From positions 2,790,001-2,854,000 of the forward strand of contig NC_018691.1 in assembly GCF_000300005.1 (NCBI RefSeq): a stretch of DNA of 64,000 bases, read 5' to 3'. The DNA is from Alloalcanivorax dieselolei B5 (lineage in GTDB: Bacteria > Pseudomonadota > Gammaproteobacteria > Pseudomonadales > Alcanivoracaceae). Below are positions 3,606-19,822 of this stretch, piece by piece. Each line of letters begins with the position of its first letter. The first letter of the stretch is position 1. A model generated the notes under the pieces. It was not told the origin of the DNA, did not search any database, and saw nothing but the letters and a program-made list of their open reading frames with translations. A program made the position numbers and the translations under genes.

Positions 3606-3649
3606 CCCCGCCGCTCGCATTTTATATTTTTGCGCCAATCTTTTAATGT

Positions 3650-3663
3650 TACGTTATAACGTA
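3650..3663. promoter_or_regulatory. 14-bp perfect palindrome, candidate operator
   Basis: TACGTTATAACGTA reads identically on both strands and lies immediately upstream of the ribosome binding site of the second receptor. Its position would let a bound dimeric repressor block transcription or early translation. It suggests that the second receptor has its own promoter and control. No matching regulator family was recognised. Confidence 0.4.
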
Positions 3664-7045: not shown

Positions 7046-8158
7046 CTAGATATCCAATTCACAGTCACCGGCGGCCGCGCAGACGCATATCTGCACCATC
7101 GCCCCCGGTTCATTGATGAAGTCACCGCTGCGCAGATCGCGAACGCAGCCGGATTTCAGCGTGGTGTTGCAGGTGTGGCAAATTCCCATACGGCAACCGT
7201 GGGCCGGGTTGAGCCCAGCGTCCTCGGCGACACTCAGTAAATTGGCCTGGCCGTCGGCATTGACCTCGATATTGTTTTGCGTGAAACGCACCAGGCCGCC
7301 TTCGGCATTGTCCGGGATAGGCGCGAAGTCGGCGCGGAAACGTTCGATATGCAACCGTTGCGACAGGCCGGCTTCCGCCCAGGTTTCTTCCAGCACGGCC
7401 AACAGGCCCGGCGGACCGCAAGCGTAACAATCCCGTTCACGCCATCCCGGGCAGAACCGCTCCAACGCTTCGCGGCTGAAGTAAGCCATGTTGCCGGCTT
7501 GCTTTCGGGTATGTATTTCGTGCAGACGGTAATGGCACTGTTCGGCGCTCAACTCGCGCAGTGCCTTACCAAAGATGGTGTCGAACTCGTGGGGTGCGTA
7601 GTGAATGTGCACCGTGTCCGGCAGACGCTGCTGTAATACCAGGCTGCGCAACATACTCATTATCGGTGTGATGCCGCTGCCGGCGGTAATGAACAACGGC
7701 TGGATCGGCGAAGCGTCCGGCAGATAGAAATCCCCCTGAGGCAACCCCACCGGAACGTAATCCCCCACCTTCAGATGACGCACAATGTGGTGCGACAAAC
7801 GGCCACCGTCGATCTTCTTGACGGTGATGGTGAAGCAACCATCGTCCCGTTCCGGTGGTGAGGAAATCGTGTACGTGCGGGTATAGTGCCGCCCGTCCAC
7901 CGGAATGCCCACGCGAACATGCTGACCGGGGCGGTGTAACCGCCAGTTGGCCCCGGGCTTCAGTGTGATGGTGCGGGCGTCCCTGGTCTCATCCCAAACG
8001 GCCACCACCCGGGCATGCATGCGATGGGTGGTCCATAGCGGGTTCACCAGCTCCACATAATGAGAGGTTCGCAATGGGTAGGCGAACAGGTCAGTGAGGG
8101 TCGCCAACCCGGCCAGCCAGCCCTTGCCGGGCCTATGTTCGGGTTCCTGGGTGGTCAT
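7046..8158 (-). CDS. Ferredoxin reductase (FAD / 2Fe-2S) electron donor of the desaturase
   Basis: This 370-residue flavoprotein has an N-terminal FAD domain with an RTYTISSP motif (near residues 115-122), an NAD(P)-binding domain with GSGITP, and a C-terminal plant-type 2Fe-2S domain with the cysteine pattern CRMGICHTC plus a later cysteine. It should pass electrons from NAD(P)H through FAD and the iron-sulfur cluster to the membrane desaturase encoded directly downstream. An AAAGGAG site precedes the ATG. Domain order and linkage agree with DesC (PA4889) of Pseudomonas. A divergent DesT-type TetR regulator gene, present next to that locus, is not seen here. Confidence 0.88.
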   Translation of the reverse strand: MTTQEPEHRPGKGWLAGLATLTDLFAYPLRTSHYVELVNPLWTTHRMHARVVAVWDETRDARTITLKPGANWRLHRPGQHVRVGIPVDGRHYTRTYTISSPPERDDGCFTITVKKIDGGRLSHHIVRHLKVGDYVPVGLPQGDFYLPDASPIQPLFITAGSGITPIMSMLRSLVLQQRLPDTVHIHYAPHEFDTIFGKALRELSAEQCHYRLHEIHTRKQAGNMAYFSREALERFCPGWRERDCYACGPPGLLAVLEETWAEAGLSQRLHIERFRADFAPIPDNAEGGLVRFTQNNIEVNADGQANLLSVAEDAGLNPAHGCRMGICHTCNTTLKSGCVRDLRSGDFINEPGAMVQICVCAAAGDCELDI

Positions 8159-8183
8159 GCCTGGGCTCCTTTTACCTCAAATG

Positions 8184-8197
8184 TGTACACTTGTGCA
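8184..8197. promoter_or_regulatory. DesT-like imperfect palindrome upstream of the desaturase operon
   Basis: TGTACACTTGTGCA is an imperfect inverted repeat (5 of 7 positions symmetric; extending one base each side gives 6 of 8) located 26 nt upstream of the reductase start. It resembles from memory the CTTGT-containing sites bound by the TetR-type acyl-CoA sensor DesT in Pseudomonas. A repressor bound here would control both genes. The DesT link is an inference from layout. Confidence 0.45.
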
Positions 8198-8430
8198 CTC
8201 TATAGTGAGGTAATCCCCTTGGAAAGAGGCAATTTTATGCAAATGCCAAAACCGGACGCCCTGAACATCCTGTGAAAACGGATGGTGAGGCGCCCCGGCG
8301 AACCGCGGGATTCCGAGACCGCAAAGGCCCAGCGTGCCTGACCAAGGGCAATGACCTTAAAGGATGAGCGATACCGGCACGAGAAGCGCTGTCCATTCCC
8401 TACCTAATATTTGTCAATAACGGCACTTCC

Positions 8431-8871
8431 TTGGGAGTGAAGAGAATTAATATTGATCCAACCCGATCGTCTAAAAACATAGGGCTGGTGACAACCTTGG
8501 CTTTTTGCTCCGCGGCACTGGCGGTCAGCGCGACCGCCCAGGCGCAAAGCCAACGAAACTCAACGCCAGTGGGCCACAATGGATTTTCCTGCACCTACGC
8601 GCAGTTGGCCTATGATCGCTGGGGTTTGGAGTGCGGCGAGCATTGCGACCTGGATCTCGACGTGGTTTCCATTGAAGGTAGCCACGGTCTAAATCGCCAT
8701 CCTCACTGGCTTGGCGGCACCATCCGCCCCTCCCTGGCAGTCCGCTTCAACCCCGATTCCCTTGATTCGAGTATCAGTGATACGACCTGGACGCCGATGA
8801 TGATCCGTGTCAGGCGGCGCTCTCTCCGCGCTTTTTGTAACGGCGCTGCCAGTCGTTCAGATCGTCGGTGA
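8431..8871 (+). CDS. Small putative secreted protein, possibly 3'-truncated
   Basis: The open frame of 146 residues begins with TTG (a GTG two codons later is an alternative). Residues 17-38 form a good Sec signal peptide ending AQA. The mature part includes cysteines (FSCTYAQL, GLECGEHCDL). The last 20 or so residues are arginine-rich and overlap the end of the minus-strand neighbour, as if the original 3' end had been lost and replaced. No family was recognised. It could be a degenerate gene; the start site lacks a good ribosome binding site. Confidence 0.4.
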   Translation: MGVKRINIDPTRSSKNIGLVTTLAFCSAALAVSATAQAQSQRNSTPVGHNGFSCTYAQLAYDRWGLECGEHCDLDLDVVSIEGSHGLNRHPHWLGGTIRPSLAVRFNPDSLDSSISDTTWTPMMIRVRRRSLRAFCNGAASRSDRR

Positions 8872-9502
8872 GTGCCGCTTCCAAAGCCTGTGCCGGTGCT
8901 CTTGTGGCCGCCAGCGCATCGCGTTGCTCGCGGTATACCGAGGATAAGGCTTCCGTGGGGATGTCGTTCCCTTCATCGTTCATCCGCCGCCGCAACGCCG
9001 AAAAGAGCGCCGGCTCCGGAGTCCGCGTCAGTAAACGCTCCCGGTCGGTATCCTCGATGGCGTGTTCCTCGGCCCAGAACATCACCGCGTCCCGCCAGAC
9101 CGCGGAGTACGGAGCGTGCTCGAAAGTGAAGCGCCGATCCGCTTGCGGACGCCCCAGCACATCCGGGTTGCGTGCCACGGAGAAGGCCGGAATCCAGTCG
9201 TCTCCGGACGCATAAAAGGCGGCGGTGAGGCCATGAACACCCAGGCCGCGTCCCGGCCGTGTGTCGGGGTGATCGCTGGTCACGAATCGCTGATAGTGCC
9301 GTTCCCGTTTCTCGATTTTCCATTCCAGGTCCATCCCCACGGCGCTTAACCACTGGTATTGGACCCATAGGTTGGATTTCTCCTGGGATGACGCTGTCCG
9401 GGTGGAGAACGTCGCTTTTCTGGTATGACCGTCGATACGGGCCGTCACCAGGAACCCGACGAAACCGCGCGGGTGTTCGCCTGGGGCAAAATACTCAATC
9501 AT
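8810..9502 (-). CDS. Conserved-looking protein of unknown function
   Basis: A 230-residue soluble protein beginning MIEYFAPGEHPRGFVGF is the most plausible form; a GAGGA sits about 11 nt before this ATG. A TTG 69 nt upstream is in frame but has no near ribosome site. The protein has a mixed N-terminal half and a charged, helical, alanine-rich C-terminus (about residues 140-230) with many arginine/glutamate pairs. No signal peptide, membrane segment or catalytic motif was seen and no family was recognised. Its 3' end overlaps the small secreted-protein frame on the other strand. Confidence 0.6.
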   Translation of the reverse strand: MIEYFAPGEHPRGFVGFLVTARIDGHTRKATFSTRTASSQEKSNLWVQYQWLSAVGMDLEWKIEKRERHYQRFVTSDHPDTRPGRGLGVHGLTAAFYASGDDWIPAFSVARNPDVLGRPQADRRFTFEHAPYSAVWRDAVMFWAEEHAIEDTDRERLLTRTPEPALFSALRRRMNDEGNDIPTEALSSVYREQRDALAATRAPAQALEAALTDDLNDWQRRYKKRGESAA

Positions 9503-9598
9503 TGACGTGATGGTCCTCGTTTCGCCGCCCACCGGGATCACACCGGCCCTGGCGACAGATTGACGATTCAACCGCGTCCCAGCGAATCAAACCTCCTT

Positions 9599-9612
9599 TA
9601 CCGTAAACGGTA
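9599..9612. promoter_or_regulatory. Small palindrome in the divergent gap
   Basis: TACCGT and ACGGTA flank a 2-nt centre, about 90 nt upstream of the unknown minus-strand gene. A good AGGAGG-like sequence (minus strand, about 9592-9597) lies just beside it but is too far from any start codon of that gene. It may be an operator or a chance palindrome. Confidence 0.25.
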
Positions 9613-9711
9613 GTGTAGTGCATCTTTGGCCATTTTTACGTTCCTTTTGCTGCCCCGTTTACGTTTTTACACGCTTTTTTCACATCAAATGGAACCGAAC
9701 CCAGCGGCCGG

Positions 9712-10842
9712 TCACGGCGTGCCGCCGTACGTCCAGGCTCGCAACAGCGCCTCAAGAGGGCCGCGTTCAAACCGTTTCGCCAGGACACTGACAATCGCCA
9801 TCGACATCACCGCCACCGCGATGGCGACGAAGAACAGCGCGCCCTGCCCCATCGTCCCGAACAGCCCCAGTCCGTAGCCGCCGAACACGGCACCGGCGAG
9901 AATACCTTGCAGCACATACACTGAAAGCGAGTTACGCCCCGCCCTCATCAACCAGTCTGGCAGCGTGTACCGCTCGGTCAGCTTCAGCAGCAGTCCCAGA
10001 TAAGCGGCGGAAAGCAGTGGAGCACCAAGCACCAGGACGACCAGGCCGGCCAGCGAGTGCAGGCCCCGCTCAGGGGGAATCATCCAACTCATGGCGGCGG
10101 CGTAGTAGAGATTGAAGGTAACGCCGAAGAAAATCAGCCAGGGCAGCCCTTTGTTCAGGGAGACACGCCCCCGGTTCAACGGCGTTTCAAAGAAGCCGCT
10201 CTTGGCCGCGGCAAGACCGGAAGCAAAGGCCGCGAACGCCAACGGTCCCTGGAACAGCAACAGAAACGCAAATGTCCCTGGCCAATCAAGCCAGCGGGTC
10301 CGAGTCGCCTCCCAATATCCCCCACCCAATGTCGTGCCCGAGGACAATGTGTCCGGCAGCAATATTCCCAGAGAGGTCAACGACACCACGCCCAGCGGCA
10401 CCATGGTCAGCGCGATGCGTATCAGCGTGGCCGGGTCGCGCTGACGCAGAGGCCAGATCACCAGGCCCAGCAAAACGTAGAGCAACAGGATATCCCCATT
10501 GAAAACCAAGACCGCGTGAAGTACGCCAAGTACCGCCAGGCCCGACAAGCGCCGGGCGTAGCGACGATTGAAGGAGACGCCCTTTTTTTGAGCGGATTGC
10601 GCTTGCTGATGCAGGGACCAGCCGAACAAGAAAGAAAACAGCAAGAAAAATTTCGCCTGAAAGAGCCCCTCCACCAGAAAGGCCGCCACCTGATCCAAGG
10701 CGGCTGACGGCGGGACCAGACTGGCTTCCACCGGCAACGCCATGAACGGCACGTTGACGATGCAGATGCCCATCAACGCGGTCACGCGTACCGCGTCCGG
10801 ATGGGGATTACGTCCGGATGACCGGTGTCCTGAGGATGGCAT
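9712..10842 (-). CDS. DUF418-family (YeiB-like) integral membrane protein
   Basis: The 376-residue protein consists almost entirely of hydrophobic segments (about nine to ten helices). The C-terminal region with RAGRNSLSVYVLQG is the conserved core of the DUF418 domain, which is related to membrane acyltransferases such as YeiB. The reaction is unknown. The ATG at 10842 is preferred because the 66 upstream in-frame residues overlap the regulatory region and the divergent TetR gene. No clear ribosome site precedes it, so the start is uncertain. It is transcribed away from the TetR regulator across shared operators, which points to repression by that regulator. Confidence 0.8.
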   Translation of the reverse strand: MPSSGHRSSGRNPHPDAVRVTALMGICIVNVPFMALPVEASLVPPSAALDQVAAFLVEGLFQAKFFLLFSFLFGWSLHQQAQSAQKKGVSFNRRYARRLSGLAVLGVLHAVLVFNGDILLLYVLLGLVIWPLRQRDPATLIRIALTMVPLGVVSLTSLGILLPDTLSSGTTLGGGYWEATRTRWLDWPGTFAFLLLFQGPLAFAAFASGLAAAKSGFFETPLNRGRVSLNKGLPWLIFFGVTFNLYYAAAMSWMIPPERGLHSLAGLVVLVLGAPLLSAAYLGLLLKLTERYTLPDWLMRAGRNSLSVYVLQGILAGAVFGGYGLGLFGTMGQGALFFVAIAVAVMSMAIVSVLAKRFERGPLEALLRAWTYGGTP

Positions 10843-10885
10843 GGATGTGGGCTGTGGTTGTGAAAACACGATTAGGGTCTCGATT

Positions 10886-10923
10886 TTGAGCGATTGTTCA
10901 ATTAATATTGAGCGTATGTTCAA
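10886..10923. promoter_or_regulatory. Two tandem 16-bp operator-like repeats
   Basis: TTGAGCGATTGTTCAA (10886-10901) and TTGAGCGTATGTTCAA (10908-10923) differ at two central positions and are spaced 22 bp start to start, about two helical turns. Each is itself partly palindromic (TTGA...TCAA). They lie between the DUF418 gene and the divergent TetR gene, the classical position for autoregulation by a TetR dimer pair. Confidence 0.65.
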
Positions 10924-10946
10924 CTCTGTCAAGACGGGAGAGAAAA

Positions 10947-11525
10947 ATGAGCACCCGAAAATCCCGGGAACGTCAGGCGACGTTGATTGACGCGACCATC
11001 GAGGTACTCGTCGAAAGTGGGCTGACGGCCGCGACGACACGGGCGGTCACTCAGAGGGCCGGTGTCGGCACCGGGCTGCTCAATCACTACTTTCGCTGGC
11101 CCGAGTTGCGTGCCGCGGCCTGGCAAGCCCTGTTCGAGGAAGTGGCCAAGGATCAATTCGAACAGGAGCAGACAGCACAAATCGTCATGGAACGTTACTT
11201 CCGAGAGGCCTTTGTCGAGGCCGCTCGTCCCTATTGGCGGCTGTGGATCGAAGCCACCGAACTGGCGGCGAGCGACAAGCCGATGAGAAACGCTTTGAAG
11301 TCCATCCAGGCGCGTATGCAGGACGGCTTGGCCAGGGTGCTCAGCGACGGCTGTGAGTCCGGCTCATGGCGACTGCCGGATCCCGAGGCAAGCGCGCTTC
11401 GACTGGGTGCTCTTTACGATGGCCTGGCCGGGCTGTTGATCTCTGGTATCAGCCCGGTAAGCCCCGATTCGGCGGAAAAGCACTTGCGCAAGGCGTTCGC
11501 TCTGGAATGTGGTGCAGAGCAGTGA
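10947..11525 (+). CDS. TetR/AcrR-family transcriptional regulator (BetI-like)
   Basis: This 192-residue protein has an N-terminal helix-turn-helix (about residues 10-55, including TTRAVTQRAGVGTGLLNHYF) and a BetI-type C-terminal ligand domain. The ATG at 10947, preceded by GGGAGAG, is preferred over the GTG-type start 39 nt upstream, which lies in the operator region. It diverges from the DUF418 membrane gene and is followed 28 nt later by a secreted-protein gene. Both are candidate targets. The inducer is unknown. Confidence 0.88.
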   Translation: MSTRKSRERQATLIDATIEVLVESGLTAATTRAVTQRAGVGTGLLNHYFRWPELRAAAWQALFEEVAKDQFEQEQTAQIVMERYFREAFVEAARPYWRLWIEATELAASDKPMRNALKSIQARMQDGLARVLSDGCESGSWRLPDPEASALRLGALYDGLAGLLISGISPVSPDSAEKHLRKAFALECGAEQ

Positions 11526-11553
11526 AAGGGATTCGACCGTGGGGAGAACGAGA

Positions 11554-12357
11554 ATGACCAGGATGGGAAAAGTGCTTTGGGCCGCGTATATGGGAATGTG
11601 CTCCGCCTCCGTCGCGGCGGCGGAACGGGACAGCGTGCGTTACTCGGTACTCTCCGACGACAAATACCTCGGTGAGATTGTTCATTTGGAAGAACGGTCC
11701 GGTACAGAGAACAGCAAGGATAAAGTGATCTCGGTCAGTGGCGACCTGTCCCTCTCCGGATGGTGGGGAAGCTGGTCACGCAAGTATCAGATACGAAGTC
11801 GCCTGCGGAATCACAAACCTGTCAGTCTGGATATGAAGCTCTTCAAAAACGGGAAGGGATTCTATATTCACGGGGAAGAATATGAAGGGCAGTTGTGGGT
11901 GACCGCGTCCGAAGTCAAGAGCGGCCGGCAAAGAGAGGATGAGCAGGTCGTCGACGTATCGTTCTCCATCTTGACCGAGTTCTTCCCTGAGCTGGGCTTC
12001 CTCTCCGTGTTCGGCGGCGAGGACTCGGATCAGGGCATCATGGTGCCGTTGACCAGCTTCGACGTGGTCGATGAAGCCTTGCCGGATTACATTCACGATC
12101 ACGATTACCGGTTCAATGAGACCGCCGTAAGAGTTTTTGAACCCGAGAACATGGAGATTCTGACTTACACCCTGACCGCCCGCGGCGAAAAATACATCGA
12201 CCTCGCCGGCACACGCTACCGATGCCAGGAAGTGGAAATCCATAATCGGGATAAAAGCAGCGTGTATTGGATCGCGCGGAAAAATGGTCAGGCGCTTCTG
12301 GTTCAGGAGACCGGCACCGACAAAGAGGGCCACTATCAAGTCACGCTGATGGAATAG
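11554..12357 (+). CDS. Exported protein of unknown function (DUF3108-like pattern)
   Basis: The 267-residue product starts at ATG 11554, 7 nt after GGGGAG, and has a signal peptide cleaved near VAAAE. The remainder is beta-rich with no cysteine cluster. The C-terminal section (YRCQEVEIHNRDKSSVYWIA followed by LLVQE) has the spacing of DUF3108-type periplasmic proteins, in which a substituted glycan-like core is capped by a YW element; that similarity is tentative. It follows the TetR gene by 28 nt and may be in its operon. Function unknown. Confidence 0.7.
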   Translation: MTRMGKVLWAAYMGMCSASVAAAERDSVRYSVLSDDKYLGEIVHLEERSGTENSKDKVISVSGDLSLSGWWGSWSRKYQIRSRLRNHKPVSLDMKLFKNGKGFYIHGEEYEGQLWVTASEVKSGRQREDEQVVDVSFSILTEFFPELGFLSVFGGEDSDQGIMVPLTSFDVVDEALPDYIHDHDYRFNETAVRVFEPENMEILTYTLTARGEKYIDLAGTRYRCQEVEIHNRDKSSVYWIARKNGQALLVQETGTDKEGHYQVTLME

Positions 12358-12482: not shown

Positions 12483-12932
12483 TCACGAACGGTGATGAAC
12501 GTAATGCCGTTCCCGGCTTTCCTGGCGTGCTTTCACGTCGATGGAATACTCCGCCGTCGGCCTGGCCAGCAGCCGCTCGATACCGATCGGTTCGCCGCTT
12601 TCCAGGCAGTAACCATAGTCTCCGGTAGCCAGCCGCCGTAAGGCGCCATCCACTTTTTTCAGCAACCCGATGTTACGCTCAATGGTCCTCAACAGATAGC
12701 GCCGATCTTCCTCCGCACTGGCCAGGTCGAAGTCGTCCGGTTGCCGCTCATCGGACTGCAACGCCAGGCGGTAAGTGGCCAGATCCACTTCAATCTTCTC
12801 TCTCATCGCCAGCAAACGCTGCCGGAAGAACATCTGTTGGCGCCGGTTCATGTAGTCCCGTTTGGGCATCCGCCGCAGCGCCGCTTCCGTCGGCGGCTGG
12901 TCCATGGAAGACGTGGCGGTGGCATCAGACAT
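12483..12932 (-). CDS. dksA2: DksA2-like RNA polymerase-binding regulator lacking the zinc finger
   Basis: The 149-residue protein has the long coiled coil of DksA with the tip motif DxxDxA (D66, D69, A71) and the C-terminal globular segment GDYGYC..GEPIGIERLLARPTAE. Of the four zinc-finger cysteines only C109 remains; the others are replaced (S112, S130, V133). This is the hallmark of DksA2 paralogues such as PA5536 of Pseudomonas aeruginosa, which are made under zinc starvation and replace zinc-dependent DksA in the ppGpp response. A Zur-box candidate lies 42 nt upstream of its start, shared with the divergent zinc-import operon. Confidence 0.85.
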   Translation of the reverse strand: MSDATATSSMDQPPTEAALRRMPKRDYMNRRQQMFFRQRLLAMREKIEVDLATYRLALQSDERQPDDFDLASAEEDRRYLLRTIERNIGLLKKVDGALRRLATGDYGYCLESGEPIGIERLLARPTAEYSIDVKARQESRERHYVHHRS

Positions 12933-12973
12933 GAGGCACTCCTGTTCAGGAAGGATGGTGTTGGTTTCTCAAT

Positions 12974-12988
12974 TGTTATGATATAACA
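12974..12988. promoter_or_regulatory. Zur box (zinc-uptake regulator binding site)
   Basis: TGTTATGATATAACA matches the gammaproteobacterial Zur consensus (tGTTATannATAACa type) at nearly every position and is palindromic except for one pair next to the centre. It lies between dksA2 and the divergent TonB receptor gene. A wider inverted repeat (TCTCAATT at 12967-12974, AATTGAGA at 12996-13003) surrounds it. Zur bound with zinc should repress both directions; zinc depletion should open them together. Confidence 0.75.
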
Positions 12989-13118
12989 TAATTTAAATTG
13001 AGATCCGGAACCACCCTTGGAACCGGTCCACCGTGCTCTTTCCTCGGGGGAGGAACAGAGCCTTTTGCCGCCGTTATTCTTTTTTGGCGCCACCTGGCGC
13101 CCTTCTCGTGAGGCTCCG

Positions 13119-15071
13119 ATGTTCCGACGTTCGCTGGTATCCCTTGTGCCGCTCTCTGCCCTTGTCACCGCCAGTCCGGCCCTCGGTAAGGAGTCCCCGC
13201 CGCGCCATCAAGTCGCCACCCTGCCCGCCATTGTGGTCACCGCCACGGCCTCGGAGCGGAACGAGGCGGATACCCCCGCCAGCGTATCGGTGATCAATGG
13301 CGATGACCTGCGGCAAAGACCCGTTCATGATCTTTCCGACGCGGTCAGGGATGCCGTCGGCATCGACGTGGAGAGTGTCGGTCTCGGCCGACGCGGCATC
13401 TCGATCCGGGGCATGAGCTCCGAACACACCCTGGTACTGATCGACGGCCAGCGCATCAGCAACTCCGCCTCCGCCATCGCCCACTCGGACTTCGAGCTGG
13501 GCTGGATGCCGGTGGAAGCCATCGAACAGGTGGAGGTGGTGCGCGGGCCGATGTCGTCGCTGTACGGCTCGGAAGCGCTGGGTGGCGTGGTCAATATCCT
13601 TTCCCGTTCCGCCACCGATCAGTGGCAGGGATCGTTCAGCAGCCAGGCCCTGATCAGCGATCACAGCCTGGACGGGAACCACTATAAAGGCGGTTTCTAC
13701 GCCGGAGGCCCACTGGTACCAGGAACCTTGGGGGTCAACGTCTGGGGTGAATACCGCCGCCGCGACGCCCTGCTCGACGCCACCGACCCCGAACTCACCG
13801 CCCTGGACGAACAGCGCGCCACCAGCGGCCACGTGGGCCTGACCTGGACACCGGATCCCTATCAACGCATCGATCTCTCCGTGGACGCCGGCAACGAGGA
13901 TCTGGAAGGCGTTCGCGGCAGCAGCCGCGCCAGCCCCTACCAATCCGACAATGACGTCCAGCGCCGCCGTTATTCTCTCTCCCACCGGGGCGATTGGGGC
14001 TGGGGCAACAGTCAGGTCCGGCTCTATCGCAGCACCCTGGATCGCGAGACCTACCGCAGTGACGGCGCGGATACCACCGGCCCCAACCGGTTCACCGACA
14101 CTGTGCTGGACGGGCGCGTGGGCTGGATCGCCGGCGGCATGCACAAGCTCACCGTCGGCAGTGAAGTCCGGCACGAGGAACTGGAAGATCCCAATATCAA
14201 CCGCAAGGGCAAGGACGACCTGACTCACTACGCCGCCTTTGCCCAGGACGAGATTTTTCTCGGTGAAAAATGGGAGCTGGTGCTCGGCAGCCGCTTTGAT
14301 CATCACCAGGACTTCGGCTGGGAAACCAGCCCACGTGCCTATCTGATGTTCCATGCCAGCGAACAGCTGACGTTCAAGGCCGGCGCCGGTCACGGCTTCA
14401 AGGCACCGACCCTGAAACAACTGTCGCCGGAATTCGAATCCCGTGCCGCCATGGGCGGGCGCGGTATCATCCGGGGCAACCCGAACCTGGAACCGGAGAC
14501 CAACCGTTCCTTTGAACTGGGTGCCACGCTCACTCAGGACCGCTGGTCCGCCGGTGCCACCCTGTTCCACAACGACGTGCGCAACCTGATCGAAACCGTG
14601 CGCCAGCCGACCTGCTTCGAACCCGGTTATGTCTGTCTGGAATACGACAACATCGCCAAGGCGCGCCTGCGCGGACTGGAGCTGACCGCCGCGGTGGATC
14701 TGCTCGAACGCTGGCGGCTGGAAGCCAACTACACCTATCTGGATGCCCGCGACCGTACCAACGACGAACGCCTGGCCGACCGTTCCCGGCACCGCGCCAA
14801 CACCACACTGATCTGGCGGACCACCGACCGGATCAGCACCCGTGTCCGCGCCGAGTACGTCGGTTCCCAGTATCGTTCCGACACCGAGCGCGACCGGCCG
14901 GATCACACCTTGTTGTACAGCAATGTGGACTACGCCTTCAGCCCCGGGATCAGCCTGCACGCCGGTGTCGAAAACCTTACCGACGAGCGCCTGGCCAATG
15001 ATGACCCCGATCTCTACGACCGTGCCGACGAAGGGCGGCGGTACTTTGTCGGCCTGACGGCCACATTCTGA
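13119..15071 (+). CDS. TonB-dependent receptor of the zinc-responsive operon
   Basis: This 650-residue outer-membrane receptor starts at ATG 13119 with GAGG 5 nt before it. It has a signal peptide (to about residue 24), a TonB-box-like VVTATASER, a plug with EVVRGPMSSLYGSEALGGVVN, and a FepA/CirA-type barrel ending LTATF. Its stop codon overlaps the start of the CobN-like gene by one base (TGATG). In Pseudomonas aeruginosa the equivalent PA1922-PA1925 operon (TonB receptor, CobN-like, ExbD-like) is Zur-regulated and linked to zinc acquisition. The ligand is probably a zinc complex, by inference from that context. Confidence 0.88.
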   Translation: MFRRSLVSLVPLSALVTASPALGKESPPRHQVATLPAIVVTATASERNEADTPASVSVINGDDLRQRPVHDLSDAVRDAVGIDVESVGLGRRGISIRGMSSEHTLVLIDGQRISNSASAIAHSDFELGWMPVEAIEQVEVVRGPMSSLYGSEALGGVVNILSRSATDQWQGSFSSQALISDHSLDGNHYKGGFYAGGPLVPGTLGVNVWGEYRRRDALLDATDPELTALDEQRATSGHVGLTWTPDPYQRIDLSVDAGNEDLEGVRGSSRASPYQSDNDVQRRRYSLSHRGDWGWGNSQVRLYRSTLDRETYRSDGADTTGPNRFTDTVLDGRVGWIAGGMHKLTVGSEVRHEELEDPNINRKGKDDLTHYAAFAQDEIFLGEKWELVLGSRFDHHQDFGWETSPRAYLMFHASEQLTFKAGAGHGFKAPTLKQLSPEFESRAAMGGRGIIRGNPNLEPETNRSFELGATLTQDRWSAGATLFHNDVRNLIETVRQPTCFEPGYVCLEYDNIAKARLRGLELTAAVDLLERWRLEANYTYLDARDRTNDERLADRSRHRANTTLIWRTTDRISTRVRAEYVGSQYRSDTERDRPDHTLLYSNVDYAFSPGISLHAGVENLTDERLANDDPDLYDRADEGRRYFVGLTATF

Positions 15072-18000
15072 TGAGCGCACAGCCCTTGCACTATTTCCGG
15101 TTGCTCCTGACCTGCCTGCTGATCAGCCTGTCAGGAGCGGCCGCCGCCACCGCCGAACCATTGATACAGGTCTTTCACAACGATTTCGTGTCGGCGGAAA
15201 AATTTCAGCAGCTGCGAACCTTCGCCAAACAGGAAGGCATGGCGCTGCGGCACCTGAACGTGGAGACCAGCACAGCGGCCACACTGCGGCAAGCGGCACG
15301 CTCCGCCGCGCTGATCGTCCTGGACGTACCGCGCCCGAATGATCGCGTGATGGTGACGCAAAAGCTGGACGTCATTCCGGAGTACAGCGAACGCCCCCTC
15401 TTGATCATCGGTGGCGGCCGCCCCGACTGGGAACAGTTACAGCCCCGCCACGGCGGCGTCCTGAGCGCCCTGTACGTCGCCGGAGGCGAGCACAATTTCC
15501 GTCGTTTCTTTGCTCTGGCCAAAGCGTTGCAAGGCGGCGCCCCGACCCCGGCGCATCTGCTCGAGGCCCCCGAATCCTTGCCCGGCAACGGCTTCTACCA
15601 CCCGCGCGCGCCCCGTGTTTTCGAGCACATTGGCGACTATCTTGGCTGGCATGGCACACAGCGGCAGAGCCGGCCCGAAGGCCGGGTGGCGTTCCTGATT
15701 CACCGGGGCGTGGTCTCCGACCTGCTCACCCGCGAAGTGGATACCCTGATCGCCCGCAGCGAAGCCGCCGGTCTGCTGCCGATCGTATTCTGGTTCGACG
15801 CCGCCGGTTCGGAAGGGCTGAGCGGCGTCCTCGGCAACGGGCAGGTGGATGTACTGGTCAACCTCACCCACCTGCGTGACGGCAAGGCGCGCCGCCGGGA
15901 TTTCCTCGCACTGGACATTCCGGTGATCCAGACATTGCGGTTCCGTGACGGGGAAGCCAGCGACTGGCCCGACGCCAAAAGCGGCGTGGCTCCACGTACT
16001 ACCGCCGTGTTTCTGGCTACCCCCGAAGGCTGGGGCATCAGCGATCCCACCGTGCTTTCCGCCACCACCGGCGGCGTGGACGATCTGTTGCCGGCACAAA
16101 CCGATGCGCTGATCGGCAAACTGCGCAGTCTGGTGGCGCTGCGCCATATACCGGCGGCGGACAAGAAACTGGCGCTGATGTACTGGAATTACCCGGCTGG
16201 CGAGAAGAACCTGGGCGCATCGAACCTCAACCTTCCACGCAGTATTGTGTCCATTCAGACTGCCCTGGCCGAGGCGGGATACTCGGTGGGTGAACCGGTG
16301 ACCGAGCAGCAGGTGATCGCCGCCGGCCAGCGCATGCTCGGCGCTCTGTACGGCACGGTATCGCTGGACGAGTTGCTGGCCGAGGACATGGCCGCGCTGT
16401 TCCCCGTGGACGAATACCAGCAGTGGCTGGCGCGGTTGCCGTCATCACGTCGAGCCGAACTGAAGCGCGGCGGTGAACCCGAACGCCATGACGCTGTGCG
16501 GGAGGTGGACGGCAAGCGCTATTTTGTCATTCCGCGCTGGCGGCTCGGGCAGCTGCTGGTGATGCCGCAAATGCCGCGCAGCGGAGATCCATCGGCACAT
16601 TACCATGACACCGACAGCATCCCCGATCCTCTCTATATGGCCGCCTATCTGTATTTGCAACGGCAATACCAGGCCAACGCGCTGATCCATCTGGGCACCC
16701 ACGGCACCCAGGAATGGCTGCCCGGCAAGGACCGCGGTCTCGCCGCCAGCGATTACCCTTGGCTGGCGGTGGGCGATCTGCCGGTGTTTTATCCCTACAT
16801 TCAGGACAACGTCGGCGAAGCCATCCAGGCCAAGCGACGTGGCCGCGCCGTCACCATCAGTCATCAGACACCGCCGTTCGCGCCGGCCGGGCTGTACGAC
16901 CAGCTACGTGACCTGCACCATCTGATTCATGAATATCAGCAACTGGATCCCGGCATGGTGCGTGAGCAAGTCAGTGCGCGTATCCGTGAAACCGCCATCA
17001 GCGCGCACCTGCATGAAGATCTGGGCTGGACGGCGCAACAGACCGAGCAGGACTTCACCACTTTCCTGCAACAGCTGCACGATCATCTGCACGAGCTGGC
17101 GCGCGCCGCCATGCCGCTGGGGCTGCATACCTTTGGCGAACCCGCCAAGGACGAACATCGCATCAGCACTGTCATGCAGCAACTCGGCGAGCCGTTCTAC
17201 ACCGCCCTGGGAACAGACCATGAAGAACTGTTCGCCGTCGACCAGGATGACTTGAGCACCACTCTCCCCTATCAAACGGTGCGTCGTTTCCTCGACCCCG
17301 AAGCCTCGCGGGATACGCCCGATGACCTTGCGGACTTTGCCGGTCGAGCGCGGCAACTGAATCAGCACTTGATCAATACCCGAGAGAACGAAGCGCTGCT
17401 GGCCGGGCTGGCGGGCCGCTTCATGCAGCCCGGCTCTGGTGGTGATCCGATCCGCAATCCGGACGTGGCCAGCGGCCGTAATCTGTACGCCTTCGAAGCC
17501 GACAAGATCCCGGCCCGGGCCGCCTACGACGCCGCCGGCACCGCCTATACACAACTGGTGCAGGCCTTCCACGCCGAGCATGACGGCGCCTCGCCGCGCA
17601 AGCTGGCGTTCAGCCTGTGGGCTTCGGAAGCGATTCGTCATCTCGGCGTGACCGAAGCACAAATCCTGCACGCGCTGGGCCTGCGGCCGGTGTGGGACAG
17701 CGCCGGCCGGGTCACCGAGCTGGAGATCATTCCCGCCGCGGAACTGGGGCGCCCCAGGACCGACGTGGTGGTGCAGGTCACCGGCGTTTATCGCGATCAA
17801 TTCGACAGCTTCATGCGACTGCTCGACGATGCGCTGACACGACTCGCCGAACGGGACGAGCCCGGCAACCCGATCGCCGCCAACAATCAACGCATCGCCG
17901 CCGCTTTGCGGCAACAGGGCCTGTCGGACGCCGAAGCGGAAGCCGCCGCACGCTATCGGCTCTTCGGCAATGCCTCCGGCAAGTACGGTACCGGTGTGCC

Positions 18001-18988
18001 CGATCTGGCCCTGCGTTCCACCGAGTGGGAAGACGACGACGCCCTGGCACGGCAATTCCTCGCCAGCAGCCGCCACGCTTACGGTGGCCAAAGCTGGGGT
18101 GACAGTCCCGGGACGGCCAACCTGCTGGCCGAGCAACTGCGCGGCACCGAGGCGGCGATCATGTCACGCTCGTCGAACCTGCACGGCGTGCTGTCCACCG
18201 ACCATCCCTTTGAATTTCTTGGCGGCTTGTCGTCGGCCATTCGTCATCTGGACGGCAAGGCGCCGCAGTTATTGATCTCCGACTTGCGCGGCGGCGCCGT
18301 CAACACCACCGGCCTGGATCGCTTCCTCGCCAACGAATTGCGCGTGCGTTACCTCAACCCGCAATGGATCGGCGCCATGCAGCAGGAAGGCTACGCCGGC
18401 ACCCTGCAAGTCCTCAACGCCACCAATAATCTGTTCGGCTGGCAGGTGATGGATCCCAACACCGTGCGCGACGACCAGTGGCAGTCACTGTTCGATACCT
18501 ACGTGACCGACAGCCGTGAACTGGGCACCAACGAGTGGTTCGAGCAGCACAATCCCACTGCTCAGGCGCAAATGCTGGAACGCATGGCCGAGGCCATCCG
18601 CAAGGGCTACTGGGACGCCTCCGAGCAAATCCGCCGCCAATTGGCGCAACGCTGGCAAACCCTGTCGGAGCAGCTCGAAGTGGACACCGGCACCGAGGTG
18701 ACCCGCCGCTTCATCGCCGACATGGCGCGCGGCTTCGGGCTTGATGGCGGCGCCAAACCGGACACCGCCGCTGCCCCCAACCCGGCGCAGCCGTCGCCGT
18801 CCGACGAGTCCGATGCACCGCAGGCGGTTCAAGGGCGGGTCATGGAGGCAGTCGCCGCTGAGTCCCCGGACGCGCCCCGCCTGTTGTGGGCGCTAACACT
18901 GATGGGGCTTCTGATCGGCGCCGGCGCCCTGTGGCAGGCCCGTGGCCAACGTGCACCGCGGTTACTTTCCCGGAAAATCGAATCCTGA
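15071..18988 (+). CDS. Exported, membrane-anchored CobN-like (cobaltochelatase large-subunit family) protein
   Basis: The 1305-residue protein belongs to the CobN/magnesium-chelatase H family, seen in blocks such as HLGTHGTQEWLPGKD, the region with YWNYPAGEKNLGASNLNLP, and GGLSSAIRHLDGKAPQLLISDLRGG. Unlike cytoplasmic CobN it begins with a signal peptide (to about residue 29, ending AAAATA) and ends with a single hydrophobic helix (about residues 1276-1294) followed by basic residues, so its catalytic-size body should lie in the periplasm. It sits in the receptor/CobN/MotA-like/DUF2149 operon behind a Zur box and contains no linked cobalamin genes. A periplasmic role in extracting or handling metal from an imported complex is likely; the chemistry is unknown. 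Confidence 0.88.
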   Translation: MSAQPLHYFRLLLTCLLISLSGAAAATAEPLIQVFHNDFVSAEKFQQLRTFAKQEGMALRHLNVETSTAATLRQAARSAALIVLDVPRPNDRVMVTQKLDVIPEYSERPLLIIGGGRPDWEQLQPRHGGVLSALYVAGGEHNFRRFFALAKALQGGAPTPAHLLEAPESLPGNGFYHPRAPRVFEHIGDYLGWHGTQRQSRPEGRVAFLIHRGVVSDLLTREVDTLIARSEAAGLLPIVFWFDAAGSEGLSGVLGNGQVDVLVNLTHLRDGKARRRDFLALDIPVIQTLRFRDGEASDWPDAKSGVAPRTTAVFLATPEGWGISDPTVLSATTGGVDDLLPAQTDALIGKLRSLVALRHIPAADKKLALMYWNYPAGEKNLGASNLNLPRSIVSIQTALAEAGYSVGEPVTEQQVIAAGQRMLGALYGTVSLDELLAEDMAALFPVDEYQQWLARLPSSRRAELKRGGEPERHDAVREVDGKRYFVIPRWRLGQLLVMPQMPRSGDPSAHYHDTDSIPDPLYMAAYLYLQRQYQANALIHLGTHGTQEWLPGKDRGLAASDYPWLAVGDLPVFYPYIQDNVGEAIQAKRRGRAVTISHQTPPFAPAGLYDQLRDLHHLIHEYQQLDPGMVREQVSARIRETAISAHLHEDLGWTAQQTEQDFTTFLQQLHDHLHELARAAMPLGLHTFGEPAKDEHRISTVMQQLGEPFYTALGTDHEELFAVDQDDLSTTLPYQTVRRFLDPEASRDTPDDLADFAGRARQLNQHLINTRENEALLAGLAGRFMQPGSGGDPIRNPDVASGRNLYAFEADKIPARAAYDAAGTAYTQLVQAFHAEHDGASPRKLAFSLWASEAIRHLGVTEAQILHALGLRPVWDSAGRVTELEIIPAAELGRPRTDVVVQVTGVYRDQFDSFMRLLDDALTRLAERDEPGNPIAANNQRIAAALRQQGLSDAEAEAAARYRLFGNASGKYGTGVPDLALRSTEWEDDDALARQFLASSRHAYGGQSWGDSPGTANLLAEQLRGTEAAIMSRSSNLHGVLSTDHPFEFLGGLSSAIRHLDGKAPQLLISDLRGGAVNTTGLDRFLANELRVRYLNPQWIGAMQQEGYAGTLQVLNATNNLFGWQVMDPNTVRDDQWQSLFDTYVTDSRELGTNEWFEQHNPTAQAQMLERMAEAIRKGYWDASEQIRRQLAQRWQTLSEQLEVDTGTEVTRRFIADMARGFGLDGGAKPDTAAAPNPAQPSPSDESDAPQAVQGRVMEAVAAESPDAPRLLWALTLMGLLIGAGALWQARGQRAPRLLSRKIES

Positions 18989-18995
18989 GAATCTC

Positions 18996-19514
18996 ATGAC
19001 CTTTTTTGCTGACATCGAAACCCTGCTTTACGCCGTCTCCCGTATTTTTCTGGCACCGGTTCTGGCCCTGATCGCCCTCGCCCTGGGCTATGCCCTGGTG
19101 ATGCTCGGCGCCTTCCTGGTGGAAACGTGGCAACGCCACCGTGGTGATCATACCGGGGAGCTGTTCGCGTTCGCCCGGCAAGATATCGGCCCGGACGAGG
19201 CGAAACGACAGCCGGCCAGCGACGATCTGGAACTGTGGATCATGAGGCGCCTGGAATGGCTGCGCATCGTGTCCCGCACCGCGCCCATGCTCGGCCTGAT
19301 CGCCACCATGATCCCCATGGGGCCGGCGCTGTTGGCACTGGGGAATAACGACGCCGGCGCCGTCGGCAAAAACATGGTGGCCGCGTTTTCCGCCGTGATC
19401 CTGGCTCTGTTGGCGGCCAGCATCTGCTTTTTCATCCTCACCGTTCGCCGGCGCTGGTTGCTGCAGGACCTGCTCGAACTGGAACAGCAACGCCACCAGG
19501 AGGGGCGGCACTGA
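18996..19514 (+). CDS. MotA/TolQ/ExbB-family proton channel-like protein
   Basis: This 172-residue membrane protein has three hydrophobic segments, with the conserved block RLEWLRIVSRTAPMLGLIAT and the following MIPMGPALLALG typical of MotA/TolQ/ExbB proton channels. ATG 18996 lies 8 nt after the CobN-like gene; the longer frame from 18942 overlaps that gene and is rejected. The stop codon overlaps the next start (TGATG). With the DUF2149 partner it is likely to form a dedicated ExbB/ExbD-like motor that energises the operon's own TonB receptor or the CobN-like protein. Confidence 0.82.
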   Translation: MTFFADIETLLYAVSRIFLAPVLALIALALGYALVMLGAFLVETWQRHRGDHTGELFAFARQDIGPDEAKRQPASDDLELWIMRRLEWLRIVSRTAPMLGLIATMIPMGPALLALGNNDAGAVGKNMVAAFSAVILALLAASICFFILTVRRRWLLQDLLELEQQRHQEGRH

Positions 19515-19822
19515 TGCGCTTTCTGGACGACGAGGACGCCAACGATCCGATGCTCTCGGTGGTCAATCTGATCGACCTTTTCCTGGTCATCATCGGCATG
19601 CTGATGGTGGTGATCGCGCAGAACCCGCTGAATCCGTTCTCGCGGGACAAGGTGGTGGTAGTGGAAAACCCGGGCGAGGCGGACATGCGCATCACCATCA
19701 AGGACGGGCAGGAACTGACGCGCTACGAATCCAACGGCGAAGTCGGCCAAGGCCAGGGATCACGGGCCGGCATCACCTACCGCCTCGATGACGGGCGCAT
19801 GATCTACGTGCCGGAGGAATGA
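19514..19822 (+). CDS. DUF2149 protein, ExbD-like partner
   Basis: The 102-residue protein has one N-terminal membrane helix (about residues 15-35, VNLIDLFLVIIGMLMVVIAQ) with an aspartate at its start, as in ExbD/TolR/MotB. A short extracytoplasmic domain with GITYRLDDGRMIYVPEE follows, the signature of the DUF2149 family found next to CobN-like genes. Translation is coupled to the channel gene by stop/start overlap. It probably forms the second subunit of a small proton-driven motor. It closes the zinc operon. Confidence 0.8.
   Translation: MRFLDDEDANDPMLSVVNLIDLFLVIIGMLMVVIAQNPLNPFSRDKVVVVENPGEADMRITIKDGQELTRYESNGEVGQGQGSRAGITYRLDDGRMIYVPEE

Follow-up and report, generated by a model that had tools for sequence, protein, structure and literature searches.

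The window analysed here is a 64,000-nucleotide stretch of the Alloalcanivorax dieselolei B5 genome (NC_018691.1, 2,790,001–2,854,000), and positions given without a locus handle are window positions; L-numbers denote individual loci and G-numbers genomes of the comparison sets. The region from 12483 to 19822 is composed of a minus-strand dksA paralogue, dksA2 (12483–12932; 149 residues, one of four zinc-finger cysteines), and a plus-strand operon of four genes, separated by an intergenic gap of 186 bases. The gap contains a strandless Zur-type palindrome, TGTTATGATATAACA (12974–12988), which lies upstream of both sides, at 41 bp from dksA2 and 130 bp from the receptor gene that opens the operon. 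The near-consensus Zur site described in an earlier note on this DNA is present, with one mismatch to TGTTATANTATAACA, which we take to be the Zur consensus and used for scoring. The operon encodes a TonB-dependent outer-membrane receptor (13119–15071; 650 residues; top NCBIfam model CirA at 410 bits, under its cut-off of 745), an HmuS-like member of the CobN/ChlH/HmuS chelatase superfamily (15071–18988; 1305 residues; PF02514, E = 1.9e-296), a MotA/TolQ/ExbB-family channel protein (18996–19514; PF01618, E = 8.3e-8) and a DUF2149 protein (19514–19822; 102 residues). These Pfam families match the operon content given earlier (TonB receptor, CobN/Mg-chelatase, MotA/ExbB, DUF2149). The channel-protein frame is open from a GTG at 18942, within the CobN-like gene, and alignment with relatives, judged by eye, suggests that the protein starts at the Met at 18996. 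The ensemble is real and conserved, and by comparison its regulation as a zinc-starvation locus is very likely. Stronger than the pairing with dksA2 is the finding that, in the sequences compared, Zur-type boxes are the mark of a single clade of HmuS-like chelatases.

The best solved relative of the large chelatase-family protein is the heme de-chelatase HmuS (9d26, 412 bits), followed by ChlH (355) and CobN (354). HmuS takes iron from heme: His-538 is essential, His-1209 lies opposite, on the other side of the cleft, a second heme has His-254 and Met-79 as its ligands, and NADH is required and viewed as the heme reductant (PMC12583661; papers are cited by PubMed Central (PMC) number). The window counterpart of His-538, in the HmuS motif HFG(T/A)HG, is H544 in HLGTHG, and that of Glu-577 is E583. 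The HmuS segment LSLDHxxEFMGG (Asp-1208/His-1209/Glu-1212) corresponds to LSTDHPFEFLGG (D1044/H1045/E1048), in which two other letters differ. His-254 corresponds to H267 in NLTHLRDG, where the Gly of the HisGlyArg motif (254–256) is replaced by Leu; Ser-1014 and Ser-1067 of HmuS are replaced by Ala and Thr. A search of the PDB with the first 350 residues alone gave no HmuS match. As in the Bacteroides protein, the N-terminus is signal-like and a hydrophobic stretch lies at the C-terminus (by eye), so the body of the protein looks periplasmic and membrane-anchored.

The earlier description of an exported CobN-like protein holds for the family and the signal-like start; the label misses the most telling resemblance, that to HmuS. 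Annotation pipelines would name the protein the cobaltochelatase CobN of B12 synthesis, in keeping with NCBIfam NF004644 (cobaltochelatase subunit CobN), which scores 1693 bits over a cut-off of 1248. We give this identity next to no credence. CobN works with CobS/CobT in the cytosol, and the window protein carries the signal-like N-terminus and C-terminal hydrophobic stretch described above; no CobT match (TIGR01651, E ≤ 0.001) is found in the genome, in a search that did not extend to CobS. The cleft motif is DHPFEF where CobN (7c6o) has DD...Q, and there is no cob gene among the scanned neighbours.

A scan of named genomes gave 578 loci, and the distribution of Zur boxes was assessed in the best 80. 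In 79 of these, the stretch that carries the CobN-like gene also has matches to MotA and DUF2149; the exception runs to a contig end. The box scan covered 500 bp upstream of the operon in 77 of these loci (L099, L116 and L120 were dropped for insufficient upstream sequence); in some loci the scanned region lies before another long open reading frame (ORF), or before the chelatase gene where no receptor match adjoins, and boxes just outside it at L078 (7590) and L088 (7560) are uncounted. At ≤2 mismatches, 23/77 loci have a box, compared with 0/77 for the backward pattern and 0/77 for an equal stretch within the chelatase gene; at ≤3 mismatches the counts are 36, 7 and 0. Sorted by residues, every one of these 23 belongs to the group of 50 whose chelatase has the HmuS-type His/Glu pair together with the His-254 equivalent, and none to the 9 with His/Glu only or the 18 with Asp/Gln. 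For the same three classes, the looser threshold gives 35, 0 and 1 loci with boxes and 7, 0 and 0 with the backward pattern. In a FastTree tree built without the residue-class columns (the partial proteins L099 and L120 left out), the box-bearing loci lie within one clade of 57 rows with a local support of 98. This tree requires three changes of residue state and 15 of box state; the long rows (the Bacteroides protein and L036) are placed uncertainly. The relatives with operon-upstream boxes come from several proteobacterial classes.

In Pseudomonadaceae, the chelatase is matched at E ≤ 1e-200 in 41 of 398 genomes (48 rows), from which a set of 33 loci was taken (the 35 better rows minus L078 and L128; 12 rows at 36–44% identity and one contig fragment were left out); this set and the named loci overlap in at least eight genomes. 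A box lies within 500 bp in 24/32 loci at ≤2 mismatches, compared with 0/32 for the backward pattern, and in 28 compared with 2 at ≤3 mismatches (L194 has no upstream sequence). The cleft pair is His/Glu in 32 of the 33; L188 lies outside the motif pattern. One Pseudomonadaceae locus, L190 (G789), has a chelatase with an inner TGA behind a one-mismatch box, and is a pseudogene or a sequencing error. For Pseudomonas, a survey of the 150 bp upstream of every gene stated that Zur control of a PA1922-type operon is seemingly unique to P. aeruginosa (PMC10393844), a claim qualified by the 24 of 32 loci counted here.

The gene set extends beyond the loci that show a zinc link. In a wider class sample, DUF2149 is matched in 21/369 genomes, and of the 20 besides the window 19 also have CobN-like and MotA matches. 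None of these 19 loci has a box at ≤2 mismatches, the single such site belonging to the twentieth (L056), and no DksA match lies within any of the 20 retrieved stretches. Two outlying loci were also observed. A cyanobacterial assembly (Kaiparowitsia; L106 6247–7510) has a chelatase of the box-bearing clade, with a COG0523 gene, directly behind a one-mismatch box, about 3.7 kb upstream of the chelatase match. The Azospirillum brasilense plasmid ABSP7_p4 (L141 4596–9327) carries cobN-like, MotA and DUF2149 genes with no receptor directly upstream; behind them come an iron ATP-binding cassette (ABC) transporter, a TonB receptor some 4 kb downstream and nikR.

Within the A. dieselolei genome itself (4.93 Mb), four sites have ≤2 mismatches to the consensus, 12974–12988 among them. 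The others lie ahead of a TonB receptor of unknown cargo (L020), at an amidohydrolase–COG0523–ZrgA–ABC cluster, where the site falls within the longest amidohydrolase frame and before its Pfam match (L021), and, with two mismatches, ahead of a COG0523 gene that has a FUR-family gene of 151 residues behind it (L022). The genome has two FUR-family genes, and from its place behind the COG0523 gene and this box we infer that the 151-residue one is the zur candidate, rather than another Fur. The window holds two sites at ≤3 mismatches, the second (3647–3661) with three, against a chance mean of 0.17. Such weak sites mean nothing alone, because at ≤3 mismatches the genome has 25 sites per strand compared with 30 for the backward pattern, that is, no excess. 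The surroundings of three of the 21 three-mismatch sites (L023–L025) were inspected, and nothing is claimed for them. One, at L023 3001–3015 (genome 831640–831654), lies between divergent genes for PhoA-type (Alk_phosphatase) and PhoX-type alkaline phosphatases, perhaps by chance; PhoA requires zinc and PhoX does not. For the box at 12974–12988, a chance origin is rejected at ≤2 mismatches. This box is very probably bound by Zur, and a zinc response of both divergent transcripts is strongly expected.

Conservation within the family was examined in 46 genomes, 13 of them from the window's genus. The operon chelatase occurs in five, all in that genus, one being a distant copy (31%). Close copies are found in three sister genomes (G028, G018 and G029), each of which retains the divergent dksA2 and the box, so that the genome comparison called for earlier supports both the linkage of dksA2 with the operon and their joint, divergent Zur-type arrangement. 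The box is identical at 15/15 bases in the four genomes, compared with 131/172 of the other alignment columns; the whole spacer is well kept, and this footprint is therefore modest evidence. A DksA2-like match (E ≤ 1e-22) is present in 15 of the 46 genomes. It shows 90–100% identity in four, which are exactly the four with a close operon, and 48–56% in the remaining eleven, the classes being drawn by identity and not by cysteines. In G019 (L036), the distant chelatase copy (7587–11537) has lost the HxGTHG motif and is adjoined by a 51-position DksA fragment (11565–11771), an arrangement that resembles a decayed form of the dksA2–operon pairing.

The two sides of the gap might still be accidental neighbours, with Zur controlling one side only and dksA2 there by chance. 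The box is single and closer to dksA2, and a consensus scan found no sigma-70-type promoter on the dksA2 side or the operon side. The pairing is kept in all three sisters with a close operon, and dksA2 lies beside the operon, in other arrangements, at seven Pseudomonadaceae loci; we therefore regard chance adjacency as quite improbable. The receptor leader contains two inverted repeats (13035–13061 and 13086–13101) whose arms are kept in four genomes of the genus; it gives no Rfam match, and its folding z-score of −1.46 is not unusual. Elsewhere in the window, the only tRNA called by ARAGORN (Val, 9872–9965) lies within a same-strand ORF of 442 residues (9712–11040) and may be a false call.

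The linkage of dksA2 with the operon is recurrent on these comparisons rather than unique to this genus. Among the named loci, a zinc-poor DksA2 is encoded beside the operon in L061 and L063 (the window's own group), Stutzerimonas stutzeri SD25545 (L078) and Pseudomonas sp. MYb185 (L128). Both L078 and L128 have a divergent dksA2 followed by COG0523, and their DksA2 retains two of the four finger cysteines. In the Pseudomonadaceae set dksA2 adjoins the operon in 5/33 loci, downstream on the same strand in L162–L164 and divergent with COG0523 in L170 and L178, bringing the Pseudomonadaceae total to seven (three after the operon, four facing it). A second gene of this kind is rpmE2-like (named by eye) and encodes an L31 protein without cysteines. 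It adjoins the operon in 14/33 loci: in 13 (L169, L170, L172, L175, L178–L185 and L187) it precedes the receptor gene in the same orientation, and in L188 it is divergent. The DksA neighbours in Castellaniella (L060) and Comamonas (L133) were dropped, each resembling that genome's only or best-scoring DksA; L133 lies outside the box-bearing clade.

DksA2 of the window (12483–12932) has the Pfam domains DksA_N and zf-dskA_traR and scores under the NCBIfam dksA cut-off (106 compared with 115.5 bits). A single Cys is present in the whole protein (YCLESGEPIGIERLLARPTAEYSIDVK), and the four-cysteine zinc finger is lost, one of its cysteines being left, as the earlier note had it. A misread of the cysteines, to be restored by a better read, is unsupported, because the orthologues of three sister genomes match it along the full 149 residues, at 100, 90 and 96% identity. 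The nearest solved chain is 4ijj, presumably P. aeruginosa DksA2, at 112 bits, compared with 68 for E. coli DksA (1tjl). At the coiled-coil tip, two acidic residues align with those of E. coli DksA; acidic residues in this position have a role in DksA function. A separate four-cysteine (C4) DksA is encoded elsewhere in the genome (L026 1269–2372; YCEACG...CIDCK, C-x2-C...C-x2-C).

In the mechanism proposed here, Zn-Zur bound at 12974–12988 would repress both divergent transcripts while zinc is plentiful, and zinc depletion would switch both on. DksA2 would replace the zinc-finger DksA, sparing zinc. The receptor would carry a metal chelate, for which a zinc tetrapyrrole is the likeliest candidate, over the outer membrane, and the anchored HmuS-like protein would bind the chelate in its cleft and free the metal in the periplasm, the His544/His1045 pair serving as ligands and acids. 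The ExbB-like/DUF2149 pair would give proton-motive energy to the receptor. In a bolder version it would drive the de-chelatase, replacing there the ATP-driven CobST/ChlID partners, which could not serve an enzyme in the periplasm. As a whole, the reading of a Zur-controlled zinc-starvation locus that imports and strips a metal chelate is given a probability of about 0.5. Taken separately, de-chelation as the activity of the large protein is about an even bet from its sequence. That Zur boxes mark the HmuS-like clade makes zinc release from a tetrapyrrole the leading hypothesis, with a zinc tetrapyrrole as the substrate being plausible and somewhat on the doubtful side. Zinc porphyrins would need no reductant, which would fit the loss of Met-79 described below.

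The channel and DUF2149 proteins form a pair whose role is proposed from a few features. The 102-residue DUF2149 protein has one predicted helix (12–35) containing D21, an Asp that is invariant in 80/80 aligned rows; from this single transmembrane helix and invariant Asp, it is proposed as an ExbD/TolR counterpart. The channel-protein model has a predicted local distance difference test score (pLDDT) of 91, and its top Foldseek matches are TolQ and ExbB (E = 0.015 at best). DUF2149 occurs in Methanosarcina acetivorans, which has no outer membrane. On plasmid pGLOV01 of Trichlorobacter lovleyi (L140 252–15865), MotA–DUF2149–CobN lies beside a complete ExbB–ExbD–TonB set; the same locus has a TonB receptor, DUF2162 and corrinoid lower-ligand genes (the cobT of that pathway, and bzaF). 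The ordinary ExbD family (PF02472) is matched at six places in the window's genome, and these matches, with the separate ExbB–ExbD–TonB set of L140, indicate that the pair need not be a mere extra energiser of TonB. A motor acting on the de-chelatase is a rather unlikely part of the scheme. Of what was claimed earlier, the zinc regulation is supported by comparison; dedicated, self-energised zinc uptake stays at the level of proposal, in its cargo as in its energising.

Several observations weigh against importing and stripping a metal chelate under Zur, or against the comparisons behind it. Fisher's exact test of box against residue class gives 4.9e-6, which overstates the evidence because the sequences are related. 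At ≤2 mismatches, the scanned region is devoid of a box in 27 of the 50 loci that make up the box-bearing class; at ≤3 mismatches, the backward pattern too is confined to that class (7/50 compared with 0/27), and base composition may be behind part of the contrast. In an alignment with a B. finegoldii protein, taken as HmuS from its operon in a plasmid record, Met-79 is absent, with Pro87 in its place, and the methionine-rich insertion of HmuS is not found; Gln-1198 and Trp-1202 are replaced by Ser and His. The window protein is accordingly not filed as HmuS, since Met-79 and the insertion are absent and cleft residues are replaced, though it may work like HmuS. For the pair, the channel profile matches only MotA among solved chains (E = 0.7–0.8), the DUF2149 profile gives no ExbD match among them, a fold search with its poor model (pLDDT 64.5) gives no match at E ≤ 0.001, and none of the six PF02472 matches falls at the DUF2149 gene. 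HmuU/HmuV have been proposed to power the receptor, not HmuS (PMC12583661). PA1922, the receptor of the related P. aeruginosa operon, is treated as a free-zinc receptor in PMC10393844 and as derived from a cobalt importer in PMC11761036.

Two rivals deserve most attention. The system could import free zinc or a small zinc metallophore, with the large protein as a periplasmic zinc-binding adaptor or chaperone to an ABC importer and the pair powering the receptor. The description of PA1922 as a free-zinc route (PMC10393844), the Zur boxes across the clade and the COG0523 matches near several modules all agree with such an importer. The cleft residues, a His pair and Glu kept clade-wide where the rows reach, exceed the needs of a zinc shuttle, and the characterised members of the superfamily act on tetrapyrroles, so we consider free-zinc import possible and rather unlikely. 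Alternatively, cobalt from a chelate or corrinoid could be acquired under zinc starvation and replace zinc in metalloenzymes: in P. aeruginosa, loss of znuA raises the cobalt level, and zinc starvation is relieved by cobalt (PMC4542158, PMC13083405); furthermore, one distant relative, the Trichlorobacter locus, lies beside corrinoid genes. That relative has a CobN-type Asp/Gln pair, outside the box-bearing clade, and the P. aeruginosa cobalt routes are PA2911–2914 and a second operon, with pyochelin, not PA1922–1925 (PMC13083405), which leaves cobalt acquisition improbable. Extending the chelate-stripping reading to the whole group, the proteobacterial (alpha, beta, gamma) periplasmic ‘CobN’ clade might be a Zur-controlled, zinc-harvesting HmuS-type branch with a motor in place of AAA+ ATPases, in places packaged with zinc-free DksA2/RpmE2; this wider proposal is tentative, and its full form is also rather unlikely.

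If the reading is correct, tetrapyrroles would be a zinc source and de-chelation would not be an iron-only activity, and zinc sparing (DksA2/RpmE2) and zinc mining would switch on together. In the opportunistic pathogen P. aeruginosa, zinc starvation strongly induces PA1922–PA1925, whose role there is unproven (PMC4542158), and the link between boxes and HmuS-type residues makes that role directly testable. Among the literature matches listed, each available in part and with subscription journals outside the scope, none links a Zur-controlled operon to HmuS or reports dksA2 next to the operon, and none, by title, is on zincophore–coproporphyrin. The main text of PMC11481552, on Zur-regulated transport, does not mention the PA1922–PA1925 genes under the terms looked for.

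Four known systems bear comparison with the locus. The first is PA1922–PA1925 of P. aeruginosa, which likewise comprises a receptor, a CobN-like protein, an ExbD-annotated protein and a small protein, a likeness drawn from its description and not from the PA1923 sequence. In vitro, Zur binds at the promoter of PA1922, and a znuA mutant expresses the four genes at levels 45- to 147-fold higher (PMC4542158, PMC8531726); their precise role ‘remains to be determined’ (PMC4542158). In contrast to the window, dksA2 (PA5536) sits at another locus there, with COG0523 genes, and Table 2 of PMC4542158 accords with the earlier statement of two separate loci, each linked to Zur. The second comes from Zur-controlled clusters of zinc-free paralogues such as PA5536–PA5534, which resemble the window in placing DksA2 under Zur; a 2009 survey found COG0523 and paralogues of zinc-dependent proteins, DksA included, clustered under Zur sites (PMC2770081). 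In PA5536–PA5534 dksA2 is accompanied by COG0523, whereas in the window it stands alone, facing an import operon. CobN of aerobic B12 synthesis is the third, a member of the same superfamily (PF02514) that has Asp/Gln (7c6o) where the window clade has His/Glu. The fourth is HmuRSTUV of Bacteroidota, where receptor, chelatase-family protein, MotA/ExbB and DUF2149 also share one operon; the residues His-538, His-1209, Glu-1212 and His-254 of HmuS (9d26) all have equivalents in the window protein. Unlike the six-gene hmuYRSTUV, the window has counterparts of R, S, U and V only, with no HmuY or HmuT. It also differs from the HmuS system in having a Zur box and a distant chelatase sequence that lacks Met-79 and the methionine-rich insertion.

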